Positions 2,419 to 25,537 of a stretch of 27,704 nt of DNA are shown here, piece by piece (position 1 is the stretch's first letter; every line of letters starts with the position of its first letter). A program made the position numbers and the translations under genes. The DNA comes from a virus. The notes under the pieces are model-generated. The model searched no databases. It saw only the letters and a program-made list of their open reading frames with translations, and was not told where the DNA came from. Location of the stretch: the IMG/VR virus record IMGVR_UViG_3300033141_006260, positions 1 through 27,704 of that record; one strand, written 5' to 3'.

Positions 2419-4296
2419 CTAATCACTTTTATAATAGCGTTTTATTAATTCATCATAATACCTATATCGCCTTGTTGCTATATATTTTAATAAATATTTC
2501 TTAGTAGTTCCTTCTATAAGATACATTAAATTATCACAAAAATCAACTACAACTGGTAATAATTTATTATCATATGTTCTACGAATCCTACCAATCTGCT
2601 GTTCTACCTTATGTAAATTAGACGTGGGATATGTCAAGAAAATTACAGATAATCGTGGCAAATCTAAACCTTCAGATGCAATCTTATCCATTGCTATTAT
2701 ACAATCAATAGAATCATCTTTTTTTACATCATCCCACTTGATACGTTTTCTAGTCTCACCTATAAGTAAAACTACCTTATATCCCTTCTCAGTTAAAGCC
2801 TTATATAATAATTTACTGTGTTTTACTCTAGAACTTAATACCAATGGAAAATGGTTCATATTGATATACTCGATAATGTGCTTGATAATCAAATCATTTC
2901 TCTTATCGTCTGTAGCAAGCATATTATATAACTTTACAAAGTCAACAACATTTTCTTTTCTAGATCCTGTCCATCTATACGCTGTAGGTATAGATTTCTC
3001 GATATTTGTATTTATAACTTTATATGTAAATGGCAAAATTCTTTTTTTTAATTTATGTGCCTTAATCTGAATCAATAGTTTACCTATAACATCATAAGTC
3101 AAAAGCTCCTTCTGATCTTTACGCTTAACTGTTCCACTTATACCTATTCTATATTTTGCAGGAATATTATTAACTACAGCTAAAAACATCTTAGCAGGTA
3201 AATGTTGTACTTCATCTATAATAACCATTCCAAACTTTTCAAAAAAATTGGGTGTTTCCGTATAAACATTATACAAAGTATTTATGATACCTACTATAAC
3301 ACTACCATCCTTCTTTTGATCTCCATTATACTCACCTAATGTATAAGAACCCTTTAACCGTTTTTTTATCTCAGTCGACCACTGACTGGCCAATCGATGT
3401 TCGTGTACTATTATAAGAGTGGGTTGTTTGATTTGGCTAATTAAACCTAACATAGCTACTGTATTATGTGTTACAGTCAAATCATCTAATAAAAATCTAT
3501 GATTTCCATTAATTACAAATCCAAAATAATCACCTGTATCTTTTTCTTTCCTCACAGAAAAATTACTATACGTATATTGTATATTTTGTCTACTATTTAA
3601 AGAAGATTCCTGTAGATTTATATATTTAAAATGTTTATAATACGAATATGATTGCATATATGTATCAAGTGGCACATCAATCGTCGAATTTGATAAACCT
3701 ATAGTTAATATATGATCTTTATTACAAACAAATGAAAAACCTGTGTCTTCGTTTGTTATCCTATATAGCTCTCCTTTACCTCTACTTGCTTTGATAACTT
3801 TACGCGGAGTTAAATCATCTCCCATTAACATATCATCTTGTACAATGTCCTGTACCTTTTTTATACTACCGTTATACATTAGTACTTTTGTGTTATAGCC
3901 TAAACATTTTCCTCCCCCAGGACTCATCTCAATTAAACCCCCGTCATTTTGTATAAGGGTCTGTATAATTGTACGCTGAGTATCTTCTAGTACAGTATCA
4001 CATAATGAAATATTTAACATATCATGAACTACTCTTTTATCTTGAATATCTAGAGGTATTCTATGTGTATCATAAAATTCTATAACCTTATATATCCCAC
4101 CACGAGGTATTTGTAAAACTTTATGAACATTATCTAGCCTATAATGATACAAATAGGTAGGAATATCCTTAGTAGATAGTTTTAATTTCTTCTTTTGGAA
4201 TATCTCTGGATTTTTATATGTAAATAGTTCACATAGACTATTTATATTATAACCCAATTCTTCCGTATTTATGTAAATTTTGTCCCGAATGATCAT
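2419..4296 (-). CDS. SF2 DNA helicase (UvsW/XPB-like) with a P-loop intein
   Basis: The product is an ATP-dependent DNA translocase of superfamily 2, probably acting in fork remodelling or recombination like T4 UvsW. The 625-codon precursor contains a 148-residue intein (131-278) that splits Walker A (SPGGGK before it, TVAML after it). The spliced protein would be about 477 residues. Other motifs are Ia (LIIVHEHRLASQW, about 293-305), DEVQ box (IIDEVQHLP, 359-367), motif III (GISGT, about 385-389), motif V (AMDKIASEGLDLP, about 535-547) and motif VI (QQIGRIRRT, about 566-574). The ATG is preceded by AAGGAAGA about 6 nt upstream and overlaps the end of an RHH gene by 50 nt. It cannot bind ATP normally until the intein is removed. 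UvsW-like is inferred from motif spacing and phage context; other SF2 subfamilies are possible. Confidence 0.88.
   Translation of the reverse strand: MIIRDKIYINTEELGYNINSLCELFTYKNPEIFQKKKLKLSTKDIPTYLYHYRLDNVHKVLQIPRGGIYKVIEFYDTHRIPLDIQDKRVVHDMLNISLCDTVLEDTQRTIIQTLIQNDGGLIEMSPGGGKCLGYNTKVLMYNGSIKKVQDIVQDDMLMGDDLTPRKVIKASRGKGELYRITNEDTGFSFVCNKDHILTIGLSNSTIDVPLDTYMQSYSYYKHFKYINLQESSLNSRQNIQYTYSNFSVRKEKDTGDYFGFVINGNHRFLLDDLTVTHNTVAMLGLISQIKQPTLIIVHEHRLASQWSTEIKKRLKGSYTLGEYNGDQKKDGSVIVGIINTLYNVYTETPNFFEKFGMVIIDEVQHLPAKMFLAVVNNIPAKYRIGISGTVKRKDQKELLTYDVIGKLLIQIKAHKLKKRILPFTYKVINTNIEKSIPTAYRWTGSRKENVVDFVKLYNMLATDDKRNDLIIKHIIEYINMNHFPLVLSSRVKHSKLLYKALTEKGYKVVLLIGETRKRIKWDDVKKDDSIDCIIAMDKIASEGLDLPRLSVIFLTYPTSNLHKVEQQIGRIRRTYDNKLLPVVVDFCDNLMYLIEGTTKKYLLKYIATRRYRYYDELIKRYYKSD
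3463..3906 (-). mobile_element. Mini-intein (148 aa) in the helicase Walker A motif
   Basis: The sequence begins with Cys131 (CLGYNTKVLM) and ends at His-Asn 277-278, followed by Thr279 as the +1 nucleophile. This gives the canonical Cys...His-Asn/Thr splice chemistry. Block B appears as CNKDH (about 61-65 of the intein), where the usual Thr of TxxH is Asn. The C-terminal block includes GNHRFLLDDLTVTHN. It is too short for a homing endonuclease and none is seen. The insertion point, between Lys and Thr of GGGKT, is a classic intein site because the codons are conserved. Confidence 0.9.
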
Positions 4297-4490: not shown

Positions 4491-5567
4491 TTACAAATCA
4501 AAATCATCATCAATAGTAGTTTCTATCTCATCTAGATCTATTGAATCTTCTTTATTCTTTTTGATGGTATGTCTTTCAAAATCTCTTTTTAGATTTTTAA
4601 TCTTAGACTTTAATATTTTAGGCAATTTCAATCCAGCACTCATAATAGTTACTCTTATTGATTTACTTAAAGCAGGATCAGAAAACATACCAATACGAGC
4701 CATCGAACTACCAAAAACTTTTTTAGATATTGTAAATATTCTCGATGCAAATTCAGTATAGCCTCCTCGAACAGGTACATCTATATTTAATAAATAAAAA
4801 AGAGTATCTTTATAATTATAACCAGATATCAATAAAGGTTCAAATAATTTCTGCTGTAATTCATCATCTGATAAATTCAGTGCAGCAGGAAGTTGAAAAT
4901 ATATATCTCGTACGTCCAATAGACCTTTTCCGTACTGAAAAATCCTAGAAAGCTCTCCTCTATCTATCGAACCTATACCAGTATGACTGATTTTATTATC
5001 TCTTAAGAGATCAAAGGCACTATAAATCCTAGCAAATATATAATAATTAATACGACGCCACCACTCTGCACTAATACCTACTTTTTTTATTAAGAATTCA
5101 TTATCAGCGAGTATATATAAACTTTTATCTATATCTTTTAATTCTTTGAGTCCTTTAATCGCATTATCTGTATCTAGAATACCTGCTAACTTGGGTGGTA
5201 GTGTTGCAATCACACCAACTCTACATTTTTTTGATTTTGCATATTCTAAGGAAGGTAAAATCATACCACCACCTGTGCCTCCACCTAAACCTAAGACAAA
5301 AATATTAAGTACATTTGAGTTAAGATGTATATCCATAAAATTAGTAAACTTTCCAAAATTGCGCTCTAGAATGAACCTACCCTTTGCTGGACTACGACCA
5401 CTACCTGTAGTACCTAACATTAATACCCGATTTGAGGTAGTATTAAAATTACGCATATCTACAGAATCTGTATTAATATAAAATACTTTGAAACCTTTGT
5501 CCTCAAACTCTTTACTTATACGACAACCACATTGTCCTAGGGCAAAAATATTAAACATATTTGTCAT
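4491..5567 (-). CDS. Tubulin/FtsZ-superfamily GTPase (TubZ/PhuZ-like)
   Basis: This is a predicted filament-forming GTPase, which in phages and plasmids moves or positions DNA or phage nuclei (TubZ, PhuZ). The N-terminal nucleotide loop is LGQCGCRI (10-17), and INTDSVD (31-37) matches the FtsZ region after strand 2. The tubulin signature GGGTGGG is at 95-101 (GGGTGTG in most FtsZ). TDNAIKGLKEL and DKSLYILADNEFL (about 133-159) match the conserved NA and Asp-Asn parts. SIDRGELSRIF (200-210) is the best candidate for the catalytic T7 loop (Asp202, Glu205). The C-terminus has a basic stretch followed by a very acidic tail (DLDEIETTIDDDFDL). At 358 residues it is in the family range. The start overlaps the previous stop (TAATG). 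Subfamily placement is not certain. Confidence 0.85.
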   Translation of the reverse strand: MTNMFNIFALGQCGCRISKEFEDKGFKVFYINTDSVDMRNFNTTSNRVLMLGTTGSGRSPAKGRFILERNFGKFTNFMDIHLNSNVLNIFVLGLGGGTGGGMILPSLEYAKSKKCRVGVIATLPPKLAGILDTDNAIKGLKELKDIDKSLYILADNEFLIKKVGISAEWWRRINYYIFARIYSAFDLLRDNKISHTGIGSIDRGELSRIFQYGKGLLDVRDIYFQLPAALNLSDDELQQKLFEPLLISGYNYKDTLFYLLNIDVPVRGGYTEFASRIFTISKKVFGSSMARIGMFSDPALSKSIRVTIMSAGLKLPKILKSKIKNLKRDFERHTIKKNKEDSIDLDEIETTIDDDFDL

Positions 5568-9497: not shown

Positions 9498-10628
9498 TCA
9501 ATTACCATCATTTTCAAAATCGATACAGATTACATATTTCTTAGAACTTTGTCCTATATATTTACCATTACTAATAAGCATAGTAGATAAGTCATTAGAA
9601 AAATTAAATACTATTTGAGATTCTTTAAAATTTTTCAATATTTTAATCAAAATAGATAAGTTAATTATAAAAGATAATTCCATTGGAATATCATTTTTAT
9701 CAATTTGAATAATCTCAGAACCTGTTTGCATAGAATGCTCGCTTACAATTGTTTTTATCACCAAATTTTCTTCAAAAATATTTATTTTTACATTTTTATT
9801 TATTTTTGTTAATGAATATAACCGTATACAAGCTTTTAATAATTGTACGGGATTTAGATAAAGTGTATGCTCATACTTTCTTAATAAATTATCTTTGTAT
9901 CCTAAAAATCCTTTTTTAGGATACTCATTCAATACAATTGATAAATTTAAAATATTTATTATAATCTTGTTATTGATCTTATAAAAATGTATTTGGTATC
10001 CCAAATCTTTTGTTATTTTTGATATTATTTTATAAAGAAGTTCAAAACTATTGCGTTCTATACAAATATCAGAATTATTTGATACTTTATATTCATAGAT
10101 TGCAGCTACTGTATCTGACGTCGTAACAAAATTTCCATCATAATATACAGCATTCCATATTTCTTTATATAAATCCTTATCTGGAAAACATAATTCGATA
10201 AATTTATATATAGTCTTTAATTCATTTTTATATATATCAAGTATACTATTCTTGCATAAATTTTTCATATTAATAATTCCTTCTGAAAAATCACAATCAG
10301 TTATAATTCGATCTACTGTATATGTATTTGTGCCACTTTGTAATATTACAGTATTAGATTGTATATTAAATTGAATTATACCTGATATACTATCTATATA
10401 TTTGTAAATTGAATCAAAATTAATGGAAAAAGATATATTAATACTTTCAATATTTCCACATAAGAATTCTAATGTATGTATTTCATCAAATACATATAAA
10501 AATAATTGTTTATCCATAATAGTAAACTGAACTAAACTACCATATTTACTGTTTTTTGTATATTTTATCATTGGAGAAATAATACGAAATGCATCATGTA
10601 ATAAATTAGTATCAATATTTATGATCAT
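9498..10628 (-). CDS. DnaN-like sliding clamp (divergent beta clamp)
   Basis: The product is a ring-forming processivity factor for the phage polymerase. The 376-residue length fits the three-domain bacterial beta clamp (about 370). The N-terminal domain has the pattern of alternating strands and one helix (INIDTNLLHDAFRIISPMI). NAVYYDGNFVTTSDTVAAI in the middle is the counterpart of the beta-clamp stretch around ATDGHRLA, though the motif is weakened. The C-terminal tail YVICIDFENDGN is divergent from the usual YLVMPMRL. The ATG at 10628 overlaps the polymerase stop (ATGA) and has AGGTGG 5 nt upstream. The GTG at 10637 that lengthens the frame is less likely. No clamp loader gene is in the window. 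Confidence 0.75.
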   Translation of the reverse strand: MIINIDTNLLHDAFRIISPMIKYTKNSKYGSLVQFTIMDKQLFLYVFDEIHTLEFLCGNIESINISFSINFDSIYKYIDSISGIIQFNIQSNTVILQSGTNTYTVDRIITDCDFSEGIINMKNLCKNSILDIYKNELKTIYKFIELCFPDKDLYKEIWNAVYYDGNFVTTSDTVAAIYEYKVSNNSDICIERNSFELLYKIISKITKDLGYQIHFYKINNKIIINILNLSIVLNEYPKKGFLGYKDNLLRKYEHTLYLNPVQLLKACIRLYSLTKINKNVKINIFEENLVIKTIVSEHSMQTGSEIIQIDKNDIPMELSFIINLSILIKILKNFKESQIVFNFSNDLSTMLISNGKYIGQSSKKYVICIDFENDGN

Positions 10629-13198
10629 TTTTCCCACCTATCAAGTACATCTATATCAGCTTTCAATGTAATTTTAACTTTTGGGATATTCTGTGTCATC
10701 AGCTCTGGTATTTTATCTACTACTTCATCAAGTTCTTCATATGGAACTTCTAAAATAACAGAATCATGTACTGACCCTACTATCTTTGTAGTTTTATTTG
10801 ATGCTTTTAACCATTTAGATATTTGTATCAACCCTAAAAAATATATATCACTAGCTGTACTTTGTATTGGTGTATTTACAGCTTGTCGTAATGCAGCTTC
10901 CTTCTCAAATATATTTGATTTATATACATTAGGTAAATATCTACGTCTACCATAGAAATTTTCTACAAAGCCATGTTCAATGGCAAAAGCTTTGATATCT
11001 TTAATCCATTGTGCCATCTGAGGAAAAGCTTTAAAAAACTGATTAATAAATGTCTGAGCTTTTTTTAATGATATATCTAATCTTTTTGCTAATGATTCTG
11101 CTGATTGTTGATAAACTATACCAAAATTAATCGTTTTGGCATTACTTCTTTTCTCAGCATGTTTTGGATTTTTTTTGTCAAAATCATCCATCTTTATATC
11201 AAATATAGCACAGGCAGTATATGTATGAAAATCATAATTAGCATTAAAGGCTTCTATCATATTAAAATCATCCGAAAGCATTGCTAAAACTCTCAATTCT
11301 ATTTGAGATAAATCACATATTACTAATTTATGATTATTTTCAGGTATTATAATTCCTCGAATCCTGTTATCACGAGGTAAATTCTGTAAGTTTGGATTTC
11401 TAGCAGAAAGTCGTCCTGTTGCTGTACCTATTTGAAAGTATTGCGGATATACTCTATGTTTTTCATCGACAAGCTTTTTATATCCTTCTAAATAGGTAGA
11501 AGTTTCTTTTATTATTCCTCTATAATCTAGAATTAAACTAAGTATTGGATATCGTTTAGCATATTCTTTAAGAGCAACCTCATCCATTGAAGGTTCTCCT
11601 TTAGGGGTTTTAAATTGCTTATTTACTGGTATTTTTAAATTCTCAAATATTATTTTTTTCAACTGAACAGTAGAATTTAAATTAAATTCTACTCCAATCT
11701 TTTTATATAATTTCTGCTTAATTGCCTCGGCTTTGTTTCTATTATCTTCTATCAGCTTATTAATTCTATCTATATCTATTTTAATTCCATTTTCATGTAT
11801 TTCTATCAAACATATGCAAACTGGTAATACTATATTATAGAATATATATGGATATTGTTTATCTATTTGATATTTTAATTTAAAATATATCCTATAAGTA
11901 GCATCAGCATCCATTGCAGAATAAAACTCAAGAGGAGTCATATCCAGAGATTTAATAAAATTTTCTTTAATATTTTTTATATAACGAAAACTCCTCAATA
12001 AAGAGTTTTCTAGTTCTTTATCTATATTGAGTACTTGATATAAATAATCTATAGGATATAAAGATAATTGATTAAATGGATATTCTATATTATCTTCTTG
12101 CTTTTTTCTTCCCTTTAAATAACCAACAACCCCTCCAAATGCATCTAATATACTATCATAACCACCTATAGAAGTTAATAACCATGACATATATTTTAAA
12201 CCATATGTCATAGCAGCAGTGTTATTCTCAAAACACATTGTTAATGTATGCTGAGCTAGCATTGTATCAAAAACAGGGTATATTTTTTTAAAACCATGCT
12301 TTCGTAAATATCGAATATCAAAATCAGCATTATGAAAAACTTTTATAACATCACATGCTTCTAATATTTCTTGTAGAAGATCAAAATGTTCCAGCATTTT
12401 ATCCCATTTTATATGTACACCCTTTCCAACTTTATTACAGAATGAAATATCAGTTATCACACCATCATGTATATTAGTATCTGATATTGTCTCAAGATCA
12501 ATAACTACAGCATCACTTTTTAATAAAGTTTTAAGATAATTCCTTATATCTACAGGATCTTCTATATTCATAGGTTGTGTTTGTATTATTTTTATAGGTG
12601 TATCTTTTAAAAAATCCAACACTTTTAAAATATCTTTTTCAAAATCTATTCTGAATTTATGATCATTATTTTGCAAAAGAGCAGATGGGTGGTAAAGTGG
12701 AATAATATGTATATTGAGTTCCGGATGATAAAAAGTTTGACCATGAACAGCTTCCATTGATGCTTTTGTTTTAATTAAACTATTGAAAGCAACTTTACCC
12801 AAAGCACATACTACTTTAGGTTTCATTCGTAAAATAATATCAATCGTAAATGTTCTGCACATTTCTATCTCAATAAAATTAGGAGCTCGATTTTTATTAT
12901 TATGTGATGGTCGACAACGAACTGCATTTGTTATATAACAATCTATATTATATTTATCCAGAAAATATTGCAATAATTTCCCAGATTTTCCAATAAAAGG
13001 TATTCCTTGATCATCTTCATTATAACCAGGAGCTTCACCAATAAATAAAAGATCTGCTTTAGGATTTCCTCTACCGATAATACATGGATTTTTTACATTT
13101 TTATATAAACCGCATTTTTTACAAAATGTATTAGCAACAGAGTATTCTAAATCAAATACTTTTCTATTTTTTGTATATGTGTCTTCAATAGTTTGCAT
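10625..13198 (-). CDS. Fusion of family 4 uracil-DNA glycosylase and family A DNA polymerase
   Basis: This is the main phage replicative polymerase, fused to a uracil sensor. Residues 1-200 are a family 4 UDG: iron-sulfur Cys26, Cys29, Cys95 and Cys114, motif GEAPG (54-58) and LYHPSAL (168-174). A DEDD 3'-5' exonuclease follows: VIDLETISD (Asp234, Glu236), FHNADFD (288-294) and FYSAMDADATYRI (425-437). The polymerase part has motif A ICDLSQIELR (626-635), motif B RSNAKTINFGIVY (684-696) and motif C SVHDSVILEVP (809-819). There is no 5' nuclease domain. At 857 residues each domain looks intact. The start has no strong ribosome site and overlaps the RuvC-like gene by 52 nt, suggesting coupling. 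A clamp-binding-like QLSLY sits at 377-381. Confidence 0.95.
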   Translation of the reverse strand: MQTIEDTYTKNRKVFDLEYSVANTFCKKCGLYKNVKNPCIIGRGNPKADLLFIGEAPGYNEDDQGIPFIGKSGKLLQYFLDKYNIDCYITNAVRCRPSHNNKNRAPNFIEIEMCRTFTIDIILRMKPKVVCALGKVAFNSLIKTKASMEAVHGQTFYHPELNIHIIPLYHPSALLQNNDHKFRIDFEKDILKVLDFLKDTPIKIIQTQPMNIEDPVDIRNYLKTLLKSDAVVIDLETISDTNIHDGVITDISFCNKVGKGVHIKWDKMLEHFDLLQEILEACDVIKVFHNADFDIRYLRKHGFKKIYPVFDTMLAQHTLTMCFENNTAAMTYGLKYMSWLLTSIGGYDSILDAFGGVVGYLKGRKKQEDNIEYPFNQLSLYPIDYLYQVLNIDKELENSLLRSFRYIKNIKENFIKSLDMTPLEFYSAMDADATYRIYFKLKYQIDKQYPYIFYNIVLPVCICLIEIHENGIKIDIDRINKLIEDNRNKAEAIKQKLYKKIGVEFNLNSTVQLKKIIFENLKIPVNKQFKTPKGEPSMDEVALKEYAKRYPILSLILDYRGIIKETSTYLEGYKKLVDEKHRVYPQYFQIGTATGRLSARNPNLQNLPRDNRIRGIIIPENNHKLVICDLSQIELRVLAMLSDDFNMIEAFNANYDFHTYTACAIFDIKMDDFDKKNPKHAEKRSNAKTINFGIVYQQSAESLAKRLDISLKKAQTFINQFFKAFPQMAQWIKDIKAFAIEHGFVENFYGRRRYLPNVYKSNIFEKEAALRQAVNTPIQSTASDIYFLGLIQISKWLKASNKTTKIVGSVHDSVILEVPYEELDEVVDKIPELMTQNIPKVKITLKADIDVLDRWEK

Positions 13199-19924: not shown

Positions 19925-22900
19925 TTAAAATATTTCACAAGAAGTACCACTACATGCCAATTCCGAACTACCTGTAGTAGTATCGCTCTTTTCATAATCA
20001 ACTAATTTAGAAAAATCTACATTTGGTAATTCTTTTAATAATTTATGATATTCCTCTTTATTAATATCTTCATAAGGGGCCAATCTATAAACATGATCTG
20101 AAACTGGCAGAAAAGTAAGCCCACCTATTTCATCGAAATTTTTATATACCCATGCTGCTACTTCCAGCCATTCATCTTCTTTGACATATATAGTCGTCGA
20201 TGGATTATGTTCACATTGTCCTGTCACAACTCCATTAAATGTACCCCTATTTGTCAGGGGTTCTGTAAAACAATACGTTTTTAAAGGTCCTATATATTCT
20301 ACCTTATTCACTTTTATTTCGAATTTCTTATTATATTTGATATCTTTTACGTTTATCCTATGCAATACCATTCCCATATCTTCCAAAAGTTTCAAAGCTT
20401 CTTTATATAATATAAGAACAGGTATTGCTGCAAGTGACCTATAGTCTTTATGTGCTAATTCATAGAATTTTTTCTTTATAACATCATTACAGTCATGTTT
20501 TGTTATTGAATAAATACCTAATGTATATAATAATAATTTAACACGTTCTACAAAATCATAATTTAATCCTCCTATATAAACACAATCCTCCATAATAATT
20601 CCTATATTGTCTATAAGTCCTCCTATCCACATAGCTCGATAGGTTATGGAAGTATGTATAGGAGGTATCCAGTTCCGTGCAAGTACTTCCTTATCAGATG
20701 GTTTCCATGTTATATATTGCTCAGAATCCATATTTTCATTATAAATCATCAAAGAATCTAAACAACAATAATGAGAAGGATATATGTCGAAGACACGCTC
20801 CTTACTATGGTGGAATATCATACCAGAATAAAATCCCTGTATATATGCATCTACTTTCGGAAAAATTGAAGTATTTATCTTTGATATAACAGGCATTCTG
20901 TATAATGATAGAGTATCTCCTCTTTTCAATGCACTTGTTTTTGTCCACAAACCATCTTCTTTTATGAACTTATGATTTCCAGTACATTTTATATTAGTAC
21001 CATTAGATAAACTAACCCTATAAACATTTTGTTGACCTGTTCTGAAAGGTGTCGTTTCTTTGAACGAAGTACCATTCCATACACGTATTTTTTTTCCTAC
21101 TAATGTTTCAATTGGTATATGTCCCTGATCTGTAAGTATTTTTGTATCTCCAGTAACACACCAGAAAGATTTCAACATTTTCCAATATTCTAATTGACTA
21201 ATAGCTGGTATTCCGCGTAGTTGTGTCTTTTGCGGTGCTTTGCATGGGAATTCTAATACCCATGTATTACAATTTTTAGGATCCTGTCCAACATCACACT
21301 TCATAGGAAAATCATGCGCACGTAACAAACGATAAAGAGAATCACTCTTTGTTATACGTACTCTACGAATATAATAACCTGTAGATGTCATTCTAGTATG
21401 TGCCCCTGCTGAGCTATTAACTAGTAAAGAAACTGTACCACTAGGTTTGACACATGTTATCGCTGCTGAAATATTAATATCCAATCGTTTAGCTATTTTT
21501 TTATTAGTTGCAATAGCAACATGTTTAAGATCAGATAACCACTTTTTTGCAGTATCATTAATATTTCCTAAAATAGAATGATCCCGCAAGCCTGTTAAAG
21601 ATACCCCTAACAATCTTTCTTCTTCACAATTAATTCTCCATTTTTTATCTATAAATTTGAAGCTCGTAAAAGTTGATTGCCATGTTCCTATCATAGTAGC
21701 AAGTTTTACCTTACGTTTTAAATCTTCAAATGTATCACCATTTCGTACTACTACTTCTGTTAAGTTGCATAGAGATTTATTGCGTAATAATACTTCTCCA
21801 CAATTATGAACAATAAAACCATTTACCACACCCCAATTAGTTTTCGGTTCATTGAAATCATATACATCAATTTTATTACTTTCTTTAATACTCATAACTA
21901 AAGGACTTTTAACTTTTATAAGATCTATCAATTTATTCATTTTATAATTTTGTATAAATCCTATATAAGTATAAAAAGCTTTTATACCCTCAAAATTTCC
22001 AATATTTAAATCATAACTTTTTTTACAAATATATTCTCCATTAGGAAATGAAACTTTTTTTGATTTATTAACTGTAATATAAGAAATGATTCCTAAATCT
22101 TGATAAAGAATATCTTTAACATTATTAACTAAATCCCAACAAGTACTTTTTAAAGTTATTCTATACTTAGAAATAACACTGCCATTAGCACTAAATAAAC
22201 CTTTTAAAAAAGATAATCTTTCTTCTTTTTTGAAACTAAAAAATTGTTTAGGCAAAGATCTTTCTGAAAGTTTCTTCATACTTATTCCTATTTTTTTCAA
22301 AACCTCAGTATATTCAGTTGTATAAAACTTTCTTCTTTTTTCTTTATTTAAATTTTCATTAAAAAAGTTCATATGATTAAATAATTTAGCAACATCATGA
22401 TCATTGCTTCCAAAATTAATTTCTAAACCTTTATGAAATTTACTACAGAGTCTTGTAGTAGTACCACCACCTTGTATAAAACCTAATTTAACAAATAAAC
22501 TATTTTCTTTAAAAGTCCTATTAACATAAACTTTAAGTCTTTTACCTTTTAAATTTTTCGCAGTAGATTCAGTATCATCATTCAATTTAAAAATATGATC
22601 TGGTGTACATGTGATAATTACTTTATTAGATAATTTAATTTTAAGAGTATTTTTTGTACCGTTTTTCCAAACTTTACCCTTAACCATTTCCCCATCAGCA
22701 TTTATTAAAATTGGTTCCGTTCCATCTAATTCTTCAAAAGTCTTATAACCATCACTAGTAAGTATTTCTTCATAACCAGCAAAACATGGATTAATCCCTA
22801 TAACAGCAGAACTATCCCTTCTTCCATTCTCTGTAACTTTTTTTTGTGCTGATGGTCTGCTAAAAATACCGCGTTCTCCACTTTTTGATCTATATAAATT

Positions 22901-25537
22901 TTTCCATTCATCTAAAAATGATATAATGTCAGGTTTTCTTGTATAAGCAACCGAATTATTTGATAGACTTCTCTGTGGATAGGCACGCCAAAATTCACCC
23001 ATTTTAGCATTAGCCATCTCATTATCTGTTAAATCCGACAGACTAATCAATGCACTATTATGTACTATAACATTTTCTGCAACAAATATTTCTGCAGTAT
23101 CTACTTCTATATCATAAACAGGTACCACATTCTTATAGATACTAATATCATGTATTGGTGATAGATAAATTTGTTTTTTGTTTGTATATAAAATACTTAC
23201 AATAGTATCTCCTATATGTTTATTTATCTTTATATTCGTAATATTTTCTTCTTCATGATACGAAGTTAGTGGTGTATCTATTTTTGTATGCTTCTTATAT
23301 GAATATTTATTGATCATATCGATCATAGCATTAAACATTGATGTAGATATCAGTAAGGAATTTTCTGAATAACTATTATATTTTACAATTATACCTATAC
23401 TATGAAACAATGTCTGCAAATTATGTAAATATATATCATTAGTACTTCCTAATGTAATATCAGTAAAATATTTATCGTATATTGCAATACCTATTGCAGA
23501 ATCAATAATACCTGCTATATACGCAATACGATTCTCAACAGATGCTTTCAATACATATTTTGGTATGTCAAAAAAACCAGATCCACTATAAGTATGGGAT
23601 TTTAACCATTTTGTAAAAGATTTCGAACATATATGTATCCTATACTTTGAGGATTCTTTTTTATCTATTTTTATTTTAATAGCGGGTATACCAATATCCA
23701 TAAGAATATAAATTATTCGGCTTATCAAAGCAGAATCAAGCTTTTCTCTATACAATCCATCTAAAGAAAGGACTACATGTCCCTTCGTAAAATATCCCCG
23801 TGCAAGCACTAAACCTAATAACCACATAAAGTTATATGATGTATCATTCGAGTTGAGATATTTTATTGGACTATAAACAATCGTAGAAAAGAATTTTTTA
23901 TATTTTATTGTAGGTAGCTCACAAATAGTTCCCTCATATGTATTTAAAGACAATAACAAAGAATCATTCTTTCCAATTTGTCTAGCCTCTTTGAAATTTA
24001 TTTCCTGTTGTTCTTTATCATATACAAGTAAACGATGTTCAGGAGTACAAACAATATCACCATATCTATGCTTTAATTTGTAAACAGATCGTAGCCCTAT
24101 ATATTTTTTACCTACAATTATATAATCTTTATTTCCTATTACAGCACGATCACCTACATTCACATCTTTAATATATTGTATTCCGTTTTTTAAATTTATT
24201 CGAGTATATCCAGGTAAACATCTCCTAGTACCACCAACAACTACTACTTCAGCAATCTTACAGCAAATATCATGCACATCTATTGATCTTAGTCTAAAAC
24301 CTCGATTGGCTTTTACAATATCAGAAGTGAAATTAATTAAATCTCGTAGTGGTTCAGGACCACTATTATGGCTTACAAAATTATTAACAATGAAACAATT
24401 CCTTGGGTATTGCATTTGTAAATCATATACATATAAAAGTCCCATTTTTCTAATGGAAATAATACTATCAAATGTTGTGTAAGCGACATTATTTATATCA
24501 ACAACAGTATCTTTACTAATATATATAATATCATTAATATCCACAGATGTGTTATAGCATTGTGTACAGTATAGAGATACAGGTGATATAGAACATTTAC
24601 ATACAATACAGTGACCATCAAGTTGTTTACGCATAGATCCTATAGCAATTCTGTCTCCTATATTAAATTTAGACAATACTTGCCATTTACCATCAGACCG
24701 CATAAATCTATGGTCATATGTAGCCTTTATCTTATAACCTTTTTTTGTCTGTATTTCATATACAGGTGCTTTTCCATTATCAACAATATCTAGCAACAAA
24801 TTTGGTACTAGTTTACCTGTAGTTTCGTCTAATGCTTTCAAGTAAATATCTTTTTGATTAGAATCTTTAAATTTTCGTATTAAATCTCGTAGATTAATCT
24901 CTATATATCTATCATCAATGTATTCATACAATATACAATCATCGGTCAAACAGGCTCTTCCTCCGAATGTTTTAAGTCTTTCTCCCCGTGGTCTTATTTT
25001 ACTGTAGTCACATATAAATTTCTGATCCTCCCACAGACATTCTAGAACTTTCTCAAACCCACGTGCCCATCCAAGTTTACTATCAGAAAATACTATTTTG
25101 ACTATTTTATTATTGTTATTAGCATCTTTTATGACAGGTAATTGATTTACATATTTTCTCTCTACACTATAACCACAACCAGTACCATTCATTAATATAT
25201 ACAATAGTTCAGCAAAATCTTTTAACTTCTCAATAGTAGTAAATGCACAATTAAAAATTGCTAAATTTTCTGTATCTGCAGCAATACCAGCAGACCACAA
25301 AGCCCGCATGGAAGGCATAACTTCTAAATTATAAATAGCATTATATACATCCTTAAATTCTTTATCAGTTATTTTATCTCCGAATTTATCTTTCATGTAT
25401 TTACAATATCTAAATACTGTTTCTCCCCATGTCTCTCTTCTACCTTTTTCTTCAATCCATCGAGAATAAGTACGTATATATACAAATTCCTGGAGCAGTG
25501 TATCAAATATACTATTATTAGTTGTATTTTCTTGCAT
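19925..25537 (-). CDS. nrdJ: Class II (adenosylcobalamin-dependent) ribonucleotide reductase with four inteins
   Basis: The enzyme reduces ribonucleoside triphosphates to deoxyribonucleotides with a B12 radical cofactor. The 1870-codon precursor holds four inteins totalling 1227 residues; the extein is about 643, close to monomeric RTPR enzymes (about 740 in Lactobacillus). Extein motifs are FNCAF (Cys97, redox), FGGRA/SGPEPLRDL, GGTRR/SALISL, GINP/CGEVLL (thiyl radical Cys1246), KSLCNLTEVV (Cys1257, redox), VKPSGTVS, and SFW/CEHNPSTTIYV. The C-terminus ends ACSGTSCEIF with the CxxxxC redox pair (1862, 1867). Slashes mark intein sites. AAAGGAGGT precedes the ATG at 25537, with 11 nt between GGAGG and the start. 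The class II call rests on the RTPR-like motifs. No cobalamin riboswitch was seen in the short leader. Confidence 0.95.
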   Translation of the reverse strand: MQENTTNNSIFDTLLQEFVYIRTYSRWIEEKGRRETWGETVFRYCKYMKDKFGDKITDKEFKDVYNAIYNLEVMPSMRALWSAGIAADTENLAIFNCAFTTIEKLKDFAELLYILMNGTGCGYSVERKYVNQLPVIKDANNNNKIVKIVFSDSKLGWARGFEKVLECLWEDQKFICDYSKIRPRGERLKTFGGRACLTDDCILYEYIDDRYIEINLRDLIRKFKDSNQKDIYLKALDETTGKLVPNLLLDIVDNGKAPVYEIQTKKGYKIKATYDHRFMRSDGKWQVLSKFNIGDRIAIGSMRKQLDGHCIVCKCSISPVSLYCTQCYNTSVDINDIIYISKDTVVDINNVAYTTFDSIISIRKMGLLYVYDLQMQYPRNCFIVNNFVSHNSGPEPLRDLINFTSDIVKANRGFRLRSIDVHDICCKIAEVVVVGGTRRCLPGYTRINLKNGIQYIKDVNVGDRAVIGNKDYIIVGKKYIGLRSVYKLKHRYGDIVCTPEHRLLVYDKEQQEINFKEARQIGKNDSLLLSLNTYEGTICELPTIKYKKFFSTIVYSPIKYLNSNDTSYNFMWLLGLVLARGYFTKGHVVLSLDGLYREKLDSALISRIIYILMDIGIPAIKIKIDKKESSKYRIHICSKSFTKWLKSHTYSGSGFFDIPKYVLKASVENRIAYIAGIIDSAIGIAIYDKYFTDITLGSTNDIYLHNLQTLFHSIGIIVKYNSYSENSLLISTSMFNAMIDMINKYSYKKHTKIDTPLTSYHEEENITNIKINKHIGDTIVSILYTNKKQIYLSPIHDISIYKNVVPVYDIEVDTAEIFVAENVIVHNSALISLSDLTDNEMANAKMGEFWRAYPQRSLSNNSVAYTRKPDIISFLDEWKNLYRSKSGERGIFSRPSAQKKVTENGRRDSSAVIGINPCFAGYEEILTSDGYKTFEELDGTEPILINADGEMVKGKVWKNGTKNTLKIKLSNKVIITCTPDHIFKLNDDTESTAKNLKGKRLKVYVNRTFKENSLFVKLGFIQGGGTTTRLCSKFHKGLEINFGSNDHDVAKLFNHMNFFNENLNKEKRRKFYTTEYTEVLKKIGISMKKLSERSLPKQFFSFKKEERLSFLKGLFSANGSVISKYRITLKSTCWDLVNNVKDILYQDLGIISYITVNKSKKVSFPNGEYICKKSYDLNIGNFEGIKAFYTYIGFIQNYKMNKLIDLIKVKSPLVMSIKESNKIDVYDFNEPKTNWGVVNGFIVHNCGEVLLRNKSLCNLTEVVVRNGDTFEDLKRKVKLATMIGTWQSTFTSFKFIDKKWRINCEEERLLGVSLTGLRDHSILGNINDTAKKWLSDLKHVAIATNKKIAKRLDINISAAITCVKPSGTVSLLVNSSAGAHTRMTSTGYYIRRVRITKSDSLYRLLRAHDFPMKCDVGQDPKNCNTWVLEFPCKAPQKTQLRGIPAISQLEYWKMLKSFWCVTGDTKILTDQGHIPIETLVGKKIRVWNGTSFKETTPFRTGQQNVYRVSLSNGTNIKCTGNHKFIKEDGLWTKTSALKRGDTLSLYRMPVISKINTSIFPKVDAYIQGFYSGMIFHHSKERVFDIYPSHYCCLDSLMIYNENMDSEQYITWKPSDKEVLARNWIPPIHTSITYRAMWIGGLIDNIGIIMEDCVYIGGLNYDFVERVKLLLYTLGIYSITKHDCNDVIKKKFYELAHKDYRSLAAIPVLILYKEALKLLEDMGMVLHRINVKDIKYNKKFEIKVNKVEYIGPLKTYCFTEPLTNRGTFNGVVTGQCEHNPSTTIYVKEDEWLEVAAWVYKNFDEIGGLTFLPVSDHVYRLAPYEDINKEEYHKLLKELPNVDFSKLVDYEKSDTTTGSSELACSGTSCEIF
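20216..21160 (-). mobile_element. RNR intein 4 (315 aa) with Gly-Gln C-terminus
   Basis: It runs from Cys1460 (CVTGDTKILTDQG) to Gln1774 (NGVVTGQ), with Cys1775 of CEHNPS as the +1 residue. Block B is CTGNH. The final residue is Gln rather than Asn and the preceding one is Gly rather than His; block F has YCF where YDx is usual. The LAGLIDADG-like helices are YIQGFYSGM (1565-1573) and IGGLIDNIG (1638-1646), without the full acid pair. Confidence 0.88.
21803..22786 (-). mobile_element. RNR intein 3 (328 aa), inserted before the catalytic cysteine
   Basis: It runs from Cys918 (CFAGYEEILTSDG) to Asn1245 (NGFIVHN), with Cys1246 of NPCGE as the +1 residue. Block B is CTPDH, block F VYDFNEP. The LAGLIDADG-like helices are LGFIQGGGT (1018-1026) and FLKGLFSANGS (1110-1120): Gly and Asn stand where a catalytic Asp is expected (QGDG and SADGS in active relatives), so the nuclease looks inactive. 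Confidence 0.92.
23057..24220 (-). mobile_element. RNR intein 2 (388 aa), GGTRR/SALISL site, eroded LAGLIDADG
   Basis: It runs from Cys440 (CLPGYTRINLK) to Asn827 (ENVIVHN), with Ser828 as the +1 residue. Block B is CTPEH, block F VYDIEVD. It is long enough for a homing endonuclease. The two LAGLIDADG-like helices are LLGLVLARG (573-581) and IAGIIDSAIG (674-683); the acidic residue that binds metal at the end of each helix is missing, so cleavage is unlikely. Confidence 0.92.
24365..24952 (-). mobile_element. RNR intein 1 (196 aa), FGGRA/SGPEPL site
   Basis: It runs from Cys196 (CLTDDCILYEYID) to Asn391 (FIVNNFVSHN), with Ser392 as the +1 nucleophile. The TYDH block B (about 273-276) and YDLQMQYPRN block F are intact. 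There is no LAGLIDADG endonuclease. In its place is a Cys cluster (Cys310, 313, 315, 324, 327) that looks like a small zinc knuckle, an uncommon insert in a mini-intein. Confidence 0.92.

Follow-up and report, generated by a model that had tools for sequence, protein, structure and literature searches.

Four inteins of different descent, apparently without active endonucleases, in the class II ribonucleotide reductase gene of a large phage

The DNA analyzed here (the window; 27,704 bases) comes from one metagenomic contig and makes up a virus record of IMG/VR. Its minus strand carries what is very probably the class II ribonucleotide reductase (RNR) gene of a large phage, holding four self-splicing inteins of different descent whose endonucleases have since been lost. 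This reading was built on exact insertion, splice motifs, separate descent and loss of endonuclease motifs, each of which was traced in the sequence. Limits of the RNR inteins were placed from their splice motifs, resulting in the following features.

19925..25537, minus strand: class II RNR precursor, 1870 aa, one uninterrupted ORF
24953..25537, minus strand: extein segment 1, aa 1-195, continuous with intein-free relatives
24365..24952, minus strand: intein 1, 196 aa (aa 196-391), site FGGRA/S, C1...HN
24221..24364, minus strand: extein segment 2, aa 392-439
23057..24220, minus strand: intein 2, 388 aa (aa 440-827), site GGTRR/S, C1...HN
22787..23056, minus strand: extein segment 3, aa 828-917
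21803..22786, minus strand: intein 3, 328 aa (aa 918-1245), site NP/C, C1...HN
21161..21802, minus strand: extein segment 4, aa 1246-1459
20216..21160, minus strand: intein 4, 315 aa (aa 1460-1774), site FW/C, C1...TGQ (C-terminal Gln)
19925..20215, minus strand: extein segment 5, aa 1775-1870, with the C-terminal redox Cys pair ACSGTSC

The inteins (196, 388, 328 and 315 aa) sum to exactly 1227 of the 1870 codons of the ORF (65.6%), the count given in a preliminary description of this DNA. Following removal of the inteins, 643 aa (~74 kDa) remain of a whole precursor of ~215 kDa. The extein is ~50% identical to intein-free phage class II RNRs across 98% of its length, and its nearest solved structure is L. 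leichmannii RTPR (PDB 1l1l, E 1e-46), with which its NPCGE motif and second Cys align. The RNR_Alpha domain was found in the ORF using Pfam, and the C-terminal tail reads ACSGTSCEIF. On the basis of RTPR homology and the catalytic Cys and Glu, the gene product is assigned to the monomeric adenosylcobalamin-dependent (class II, B12-type, RTPR-like) RNRs.

The spliced extein was aligned with 63 intein-free viral RNRs. No gap column was found at any of the four junctions, across which the joined sequence reads FGGRASGPEPL, VGGTRRSALISL, GINPCGEVLL and KSFWCEHNPS. Among the intein-free RNRs, the +1 residue is Ser at junctions 1 and 2 and Cys at junction 3 in all 63 sequences, and Cys at junction 4 in 57 of 63. 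From gap-free junctions and conserved +1 residues it follows that the inserts are in-frame insertions at conserved positions. An alignment of this kind had been named earlier as a test of whether the insertions are flanked by conserved RNR motifs; conserved flanks were found, and the claim that all four sites lie in conserved motifs was confirmed. The site names FGGRA/S and GGTRR/S used at that time denote extein residues; the inteins all start with Cys. Intein 3 immediately precedes the NPC active-site Cys of the RNR.

Splicing nucleophiles are present throughout: C1 in all four inteins and S, S, C and C at +1. Block B has the TxxH form in each case (TYDH, TPEH, TPDH and TGNH in inteins 1 to 4). 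Block G ends in HN in inteins 1 to 3 and in GQ, without the penultimate His, in intein 4. Four Intein_splicing stretches were found in the ORF using Pfam, and intein-family searches of the record gave a match in each insert. With PF14890, inteins 1 and 2 score above the cut-off, intein 3 at the cut-off and intein 4 under it (28.5 vs 35.8 bits); with TIGR01445, intein 4 scores above the cut-off (40.6 bits). By insertion, nucleophiles, block B, C-terminus and family match, the four inserts are classified as class 1 inteins.

The unusual end of intein 4, the Cys in its block F at a position that is usually Asp and the absence from intein 1 of the block F His of its relatives could each slow splicing. 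It can be argued from the missing His-Asn end and the missing His that the inteins, at least intein 4, are in decay and now splice badly if they splice at all, leaving a dying or non-functional RNR; intein-bearing nrdA genes of some Campylobacter phages have been described as degenerating (PMC3653736). We consider such decay unlikely, since the 1870-codon frame is open, NPCGE, the second Cys and the C-terminal Cys pair are retained, and a second copy of the gene, described below, is equally intact. Moreover, a C-terminal TG(Q/N) end is common to a wide intein family in phage RNRs, ICP1 included, and Gln ends can splice: the CIV RNR intein, which natively ends in Gln, splices better in this form than with a terminal Asn (PMC4031507). 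Structures predicted for intein 1 from a four-sequence alignment (pLDDT 52) and for intein 4 from a single sequence (pLDDT 31) were of too low confidence for use.

The second copy is carried by IMGVR_UViG_3300033148_007798 (39.6 kb), an independently assembled record that overlaps the window by 9.2 kb (99.98%) and is referred to as the sister contig; its RNR gene differs by one amino acid. Since only one metagenomic contig underlies the window, its RNR could be a chimera into which inserts from other genes had been joined. The same gene in a second record is a strong argument against this, and in addition the junctions are codon-exact and both ends of each insert have splice motifs. Misassembly was rejected on the sister contig and is given practically no chance.

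Inteins spread via homing, and decay is expected after fixation. Intein 1 aligns with its allelic inteins in the viral records L106, L107 and L112 except for a missing HNH segment; the first of the zinc ribbons (CxxC...CxxC) is retained. The other three have kept the outline of a LAGLIDADG domain. Its acids are lost in intein 2 (GDG to ARG, DSDG to DSAI) and in intein 4 (GDG to GMI, DADG to DNIG). In intein 3 the first acid is lost (GGG, vs GDG in the allele of Nodularia phages), and at the second motif Asn is found already in the Nodularia phage relative. When a fixed pattern for LAGLIDADG acids or the HNH motif was applied, neither was found in any of the five inteins of the window. With their endonucleases looking dead, the RNR inteins are apparently no longer able to spread.

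We infer splicing, enzyme function and the reason for intein persistence from these features, as follows. Four inteins of differing descent would have been inserted at different times into four conserved RNR sites, brought in by homing endonucleases, of which that of intein 1 was later deleted and those of inteins 2-4 lost the catalytic acids. The RNR would be translated whole as a precursor of ~215 kDa. Each splicing event would start with an acyl shift at Cys1 and transesterification to the +1 Ser or Cys, and end with cyclization of the final Asn (Gln for intein 4) and peptide bond formation, four events yielding the ~74-kDa enzyme. The inteins may persist because imprecise deletion at these sites would destroy the RNR. 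Alternatively, conditional splicing could have been co-opted to time the appearance of active RNR, for example, through redox at the active-site Cys, and this would keep inteins with dead endonucleases. Splice motifs do remain while the endonucleases look dead, and intein 3 directly precedes that Cys; however, the need for exact loss explains retention without any benefit, and the sites differ between sister phages, unlike those of a conserved switch. A co-opted function thus seems improbable, and retention through the need for exact deletion is preferred.

Kinship was determined by all-against-all comparison of the delimited inteins. Intein 1 is nearest to the FGGRA/S-site inteins of L106, L107 and L112 (E 3e-40), intein 2 to the GGxRR-site inteins of L119 and a 402-kb phage group (E 1e-23), and intein 3 to the NP/C intein of Nodularia phages (42% identity, E 6e-87). 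Intein 4 is nearest to inteins of phage class I RNR at SNL/C, the class I equivalent of the NP/C site (28-30% full-length identity, E ~1e-32). Since its homologues sit at SNL/C, intein 4 appears to have moved to a new site at FW/C. An IMG/VR scan with a pattern of the FW/C junction plus the TG(Q/N) ending, which inteins with other endings would escape, returned the sister contig only. Judged by this comparison, the four inteins are separate acquisitions from different lineages. Duplication of one intein within the RNR was rejected, since for each the nearest relatives are inteins of other phages and not its neighbors in the gene.

The window belongs to a phage with identifiable relatives. L107 lies in IMGVR_UViG_3300017963_000192 (217.7 kb; G002), in which nearly all window genes have a match in conserved order; from this match in gene order, the window represents part of a large phage of the G002 kind. 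The preliminary description had called the genome lytic, and nothing in the window shows a lytic lifestyle. Gene order is also shared with G014 (121.5 kb, 6 inteins) and G012 (236 kb, 2 inteins). No RNR was found in G014 or G012 in a search that had no positive control.

Like the window RNR, the G002 RNR holds four inteins, of which those at FGGRA/S and NP/C share their sites with the window. It differs in that its other inteins are at YN/C and PSG/T, GGTRR and FW/C being empty, and its NP/C intein starts with Ser, that of the window with Cys. Endonuclease motifs look intact in all four G002 RNR inteins, unlike those of the window. The inteins of the FGGRA site are 60% identical between G002 and L112 and 31% between the window and G002, whereas extein identity is 45% and 68.7%, respectively, and the NP/C inteins of the window and G002 are 27% identical. 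This incongruence between intein and extein, together with the low identity at NP/C, indicates transfer or replacement rather than common inheritance. Vertical inheritance of the FGGRA-site intein from an ancestor of the window phage and G002 is disfavored on the same incongruence.

A scan of bacterial genomes with the intein 3 alignment gave no match. The scan with the RNR extein alignment returned bacteria, with no cyanobacteria among them, and two loci with RNR inteins: L249, at GGVRR, and L210, at YN/C (elsewhere given as FN/C). The L210 contig is filed as a Bacillota genome bin and also holds a terminase-like gene with two inteins; it may come from a phage and have been binned as bacterial. 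One in-frame stop was seen inside the tblastn match in 17 of 80 intein-free viral RNR matches (L027, L030, L033, L035, L037-L039 and ten further loci).

In the window itself, a fifth intein had been claimed for the helicase, and its presence was borne out; it and a sixth, on the sister contig, are located as follows.

2419..4296, minus strand: XPB-like helicase, intein host, 625 aa
3463..3906, minus strand: helicase mini-intein, 148 aa, P-loop site GGGK/T, without endonuclease
L093:12623-16843 (sister contig): portal-like gene, intein of 372 aa, site IFR/T

The helicase intein matches PF05203 Hom_end_hint (E 6e-20) and resembles the P-loop inteins of the G002 DnaB and terminase. The earlier total of five is right for the window; counting the portal intein of the sister contig, which retains one of two endonuclease motifs, the total for the phage is at least six. 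In both G002 and G014 the portal intein occupies another site, STYA/S.

Thirteen inteins were delimited in G002, four in the RNR, three in PolA and six elsewhere, the last in the following genes.

G002: DnaB
G002: terminase
G002: portal
G002: structural protein
G002: radical-SAM protein
G002: one unknown

With the fixed pattern used for the window, at least one LAGLIDADG acid or HNH motif was found in 12 of the 13, and the 13th has one by eye. The clade count (G002 13, G014 6, G012 2, window phage 6) gives a total of at least 27 inteins for four genomes; they occupy 22 distinct sites, of which only five are shared between two genomes. In sister phages the genes that hold inteins are the same (replication, packaging and nucleotide genes), but the sites mostly differ. 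The heavy load noted earlier agrees with comparison data: inteins were reported in 8 of 18,717 marine viral RNRs in one survey (PMC12918982), and no intein match was found anywhere in 23 control viral records, chosen for their intein-free RNRs. Zeta crAss-like phages, with 3 inteins per genome, have the highest phage count stated in the papers covered by a non-exhaustive survey (PMC7886860). One known phage lineage is heavy in self-splicing elements; these are mostly introns, with fewer inteins per genome than the 13 of G002. On balance, though by a modest degree, we favor an undescribed giant-phage clade that serves as an intein reservoir with the highest phage intein load yet, in which the window set is endonuclease-less and that of its sister apparently active.

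In G002, DnaB (L152, ~187.9-189.0 kb) and terminase (L153, ~197-198 kb) have P-loop inteins that appear to start with Thr and Ser, not Cys. G014 holds a RecA-like protein with a P-loop intein (L169, 50.5-52.7 kb) and a terminase large subunit with two inteins (L170, 80-90 kb).

Inteins in phage RNRs are already well known (PMC3653736), and the kind itself is not new: four in one RNR gene are known from Trichodesmium erythraeum (2003, J Biol Chem 278:46826, as cited in PMC1635734 and PMC4649490). As far as those accounts go, the likeness to the window lies in the number of inteins in one gene, and the difference in a cyanobacterial chromosome, instead of a phage, that has group II introns too. 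Nodularia phage vB_NspS-kac65v151 and its relatives have a class II RNR intein at NP/C, as intein 3; it is the single intein of that RNR and its first LAGLIDADG acid is intact, whereas the window RNR has four and this acid is lost. The class II RNR of Thermus phage phiLo has one intein (269 aa) at GGTRR/S, the site of intein 2, which it resembles only across the N-terminal 90 aa (29%). NrdA inteins at SNL/C in ICP1, SCTP-2, CcrSC and PhAER-4 are full-length homologues of intein 4 with the same TG(Q/N)/C end; they are located at the class I RNR active-site Cys, intein 4 at FW/C. Less expected are the intein load across the clade, the contrast in endonuclease state between syntenic sisters and the use of FW/C as a site.

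The clade holds both states of the homing cycle in the same enzyme of syntenic genomes, with motifs intact or with none, and with these paired states the cycle can be tested directly, as can any cost of four splicings for each enzyme molecule. A further natural variant of splicing is offered by intein 4, with its terminal Gln, and by its site FW/C. Annotation is affected too: unless inteins are removed, the RNR, PolA, terminase and portal genes of such phages will be overlooked or given the wrong size.

Two further window genes were compared within the clade. At 10625-13198 (minus strand), a uracil-DNA-glycosylase-superfamily domain is fused to a family A DNA polymerase; the fusion is common to G002, G014 and G012, with up to three inteins there and none in the window. 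An FtsZ/tubulin-like protein is encoded at 4491-5567 (minus strand; TIGR00065 E 1e-11, weak PhuZ match) and is conserved in the same three genomes at 45-65% identity.
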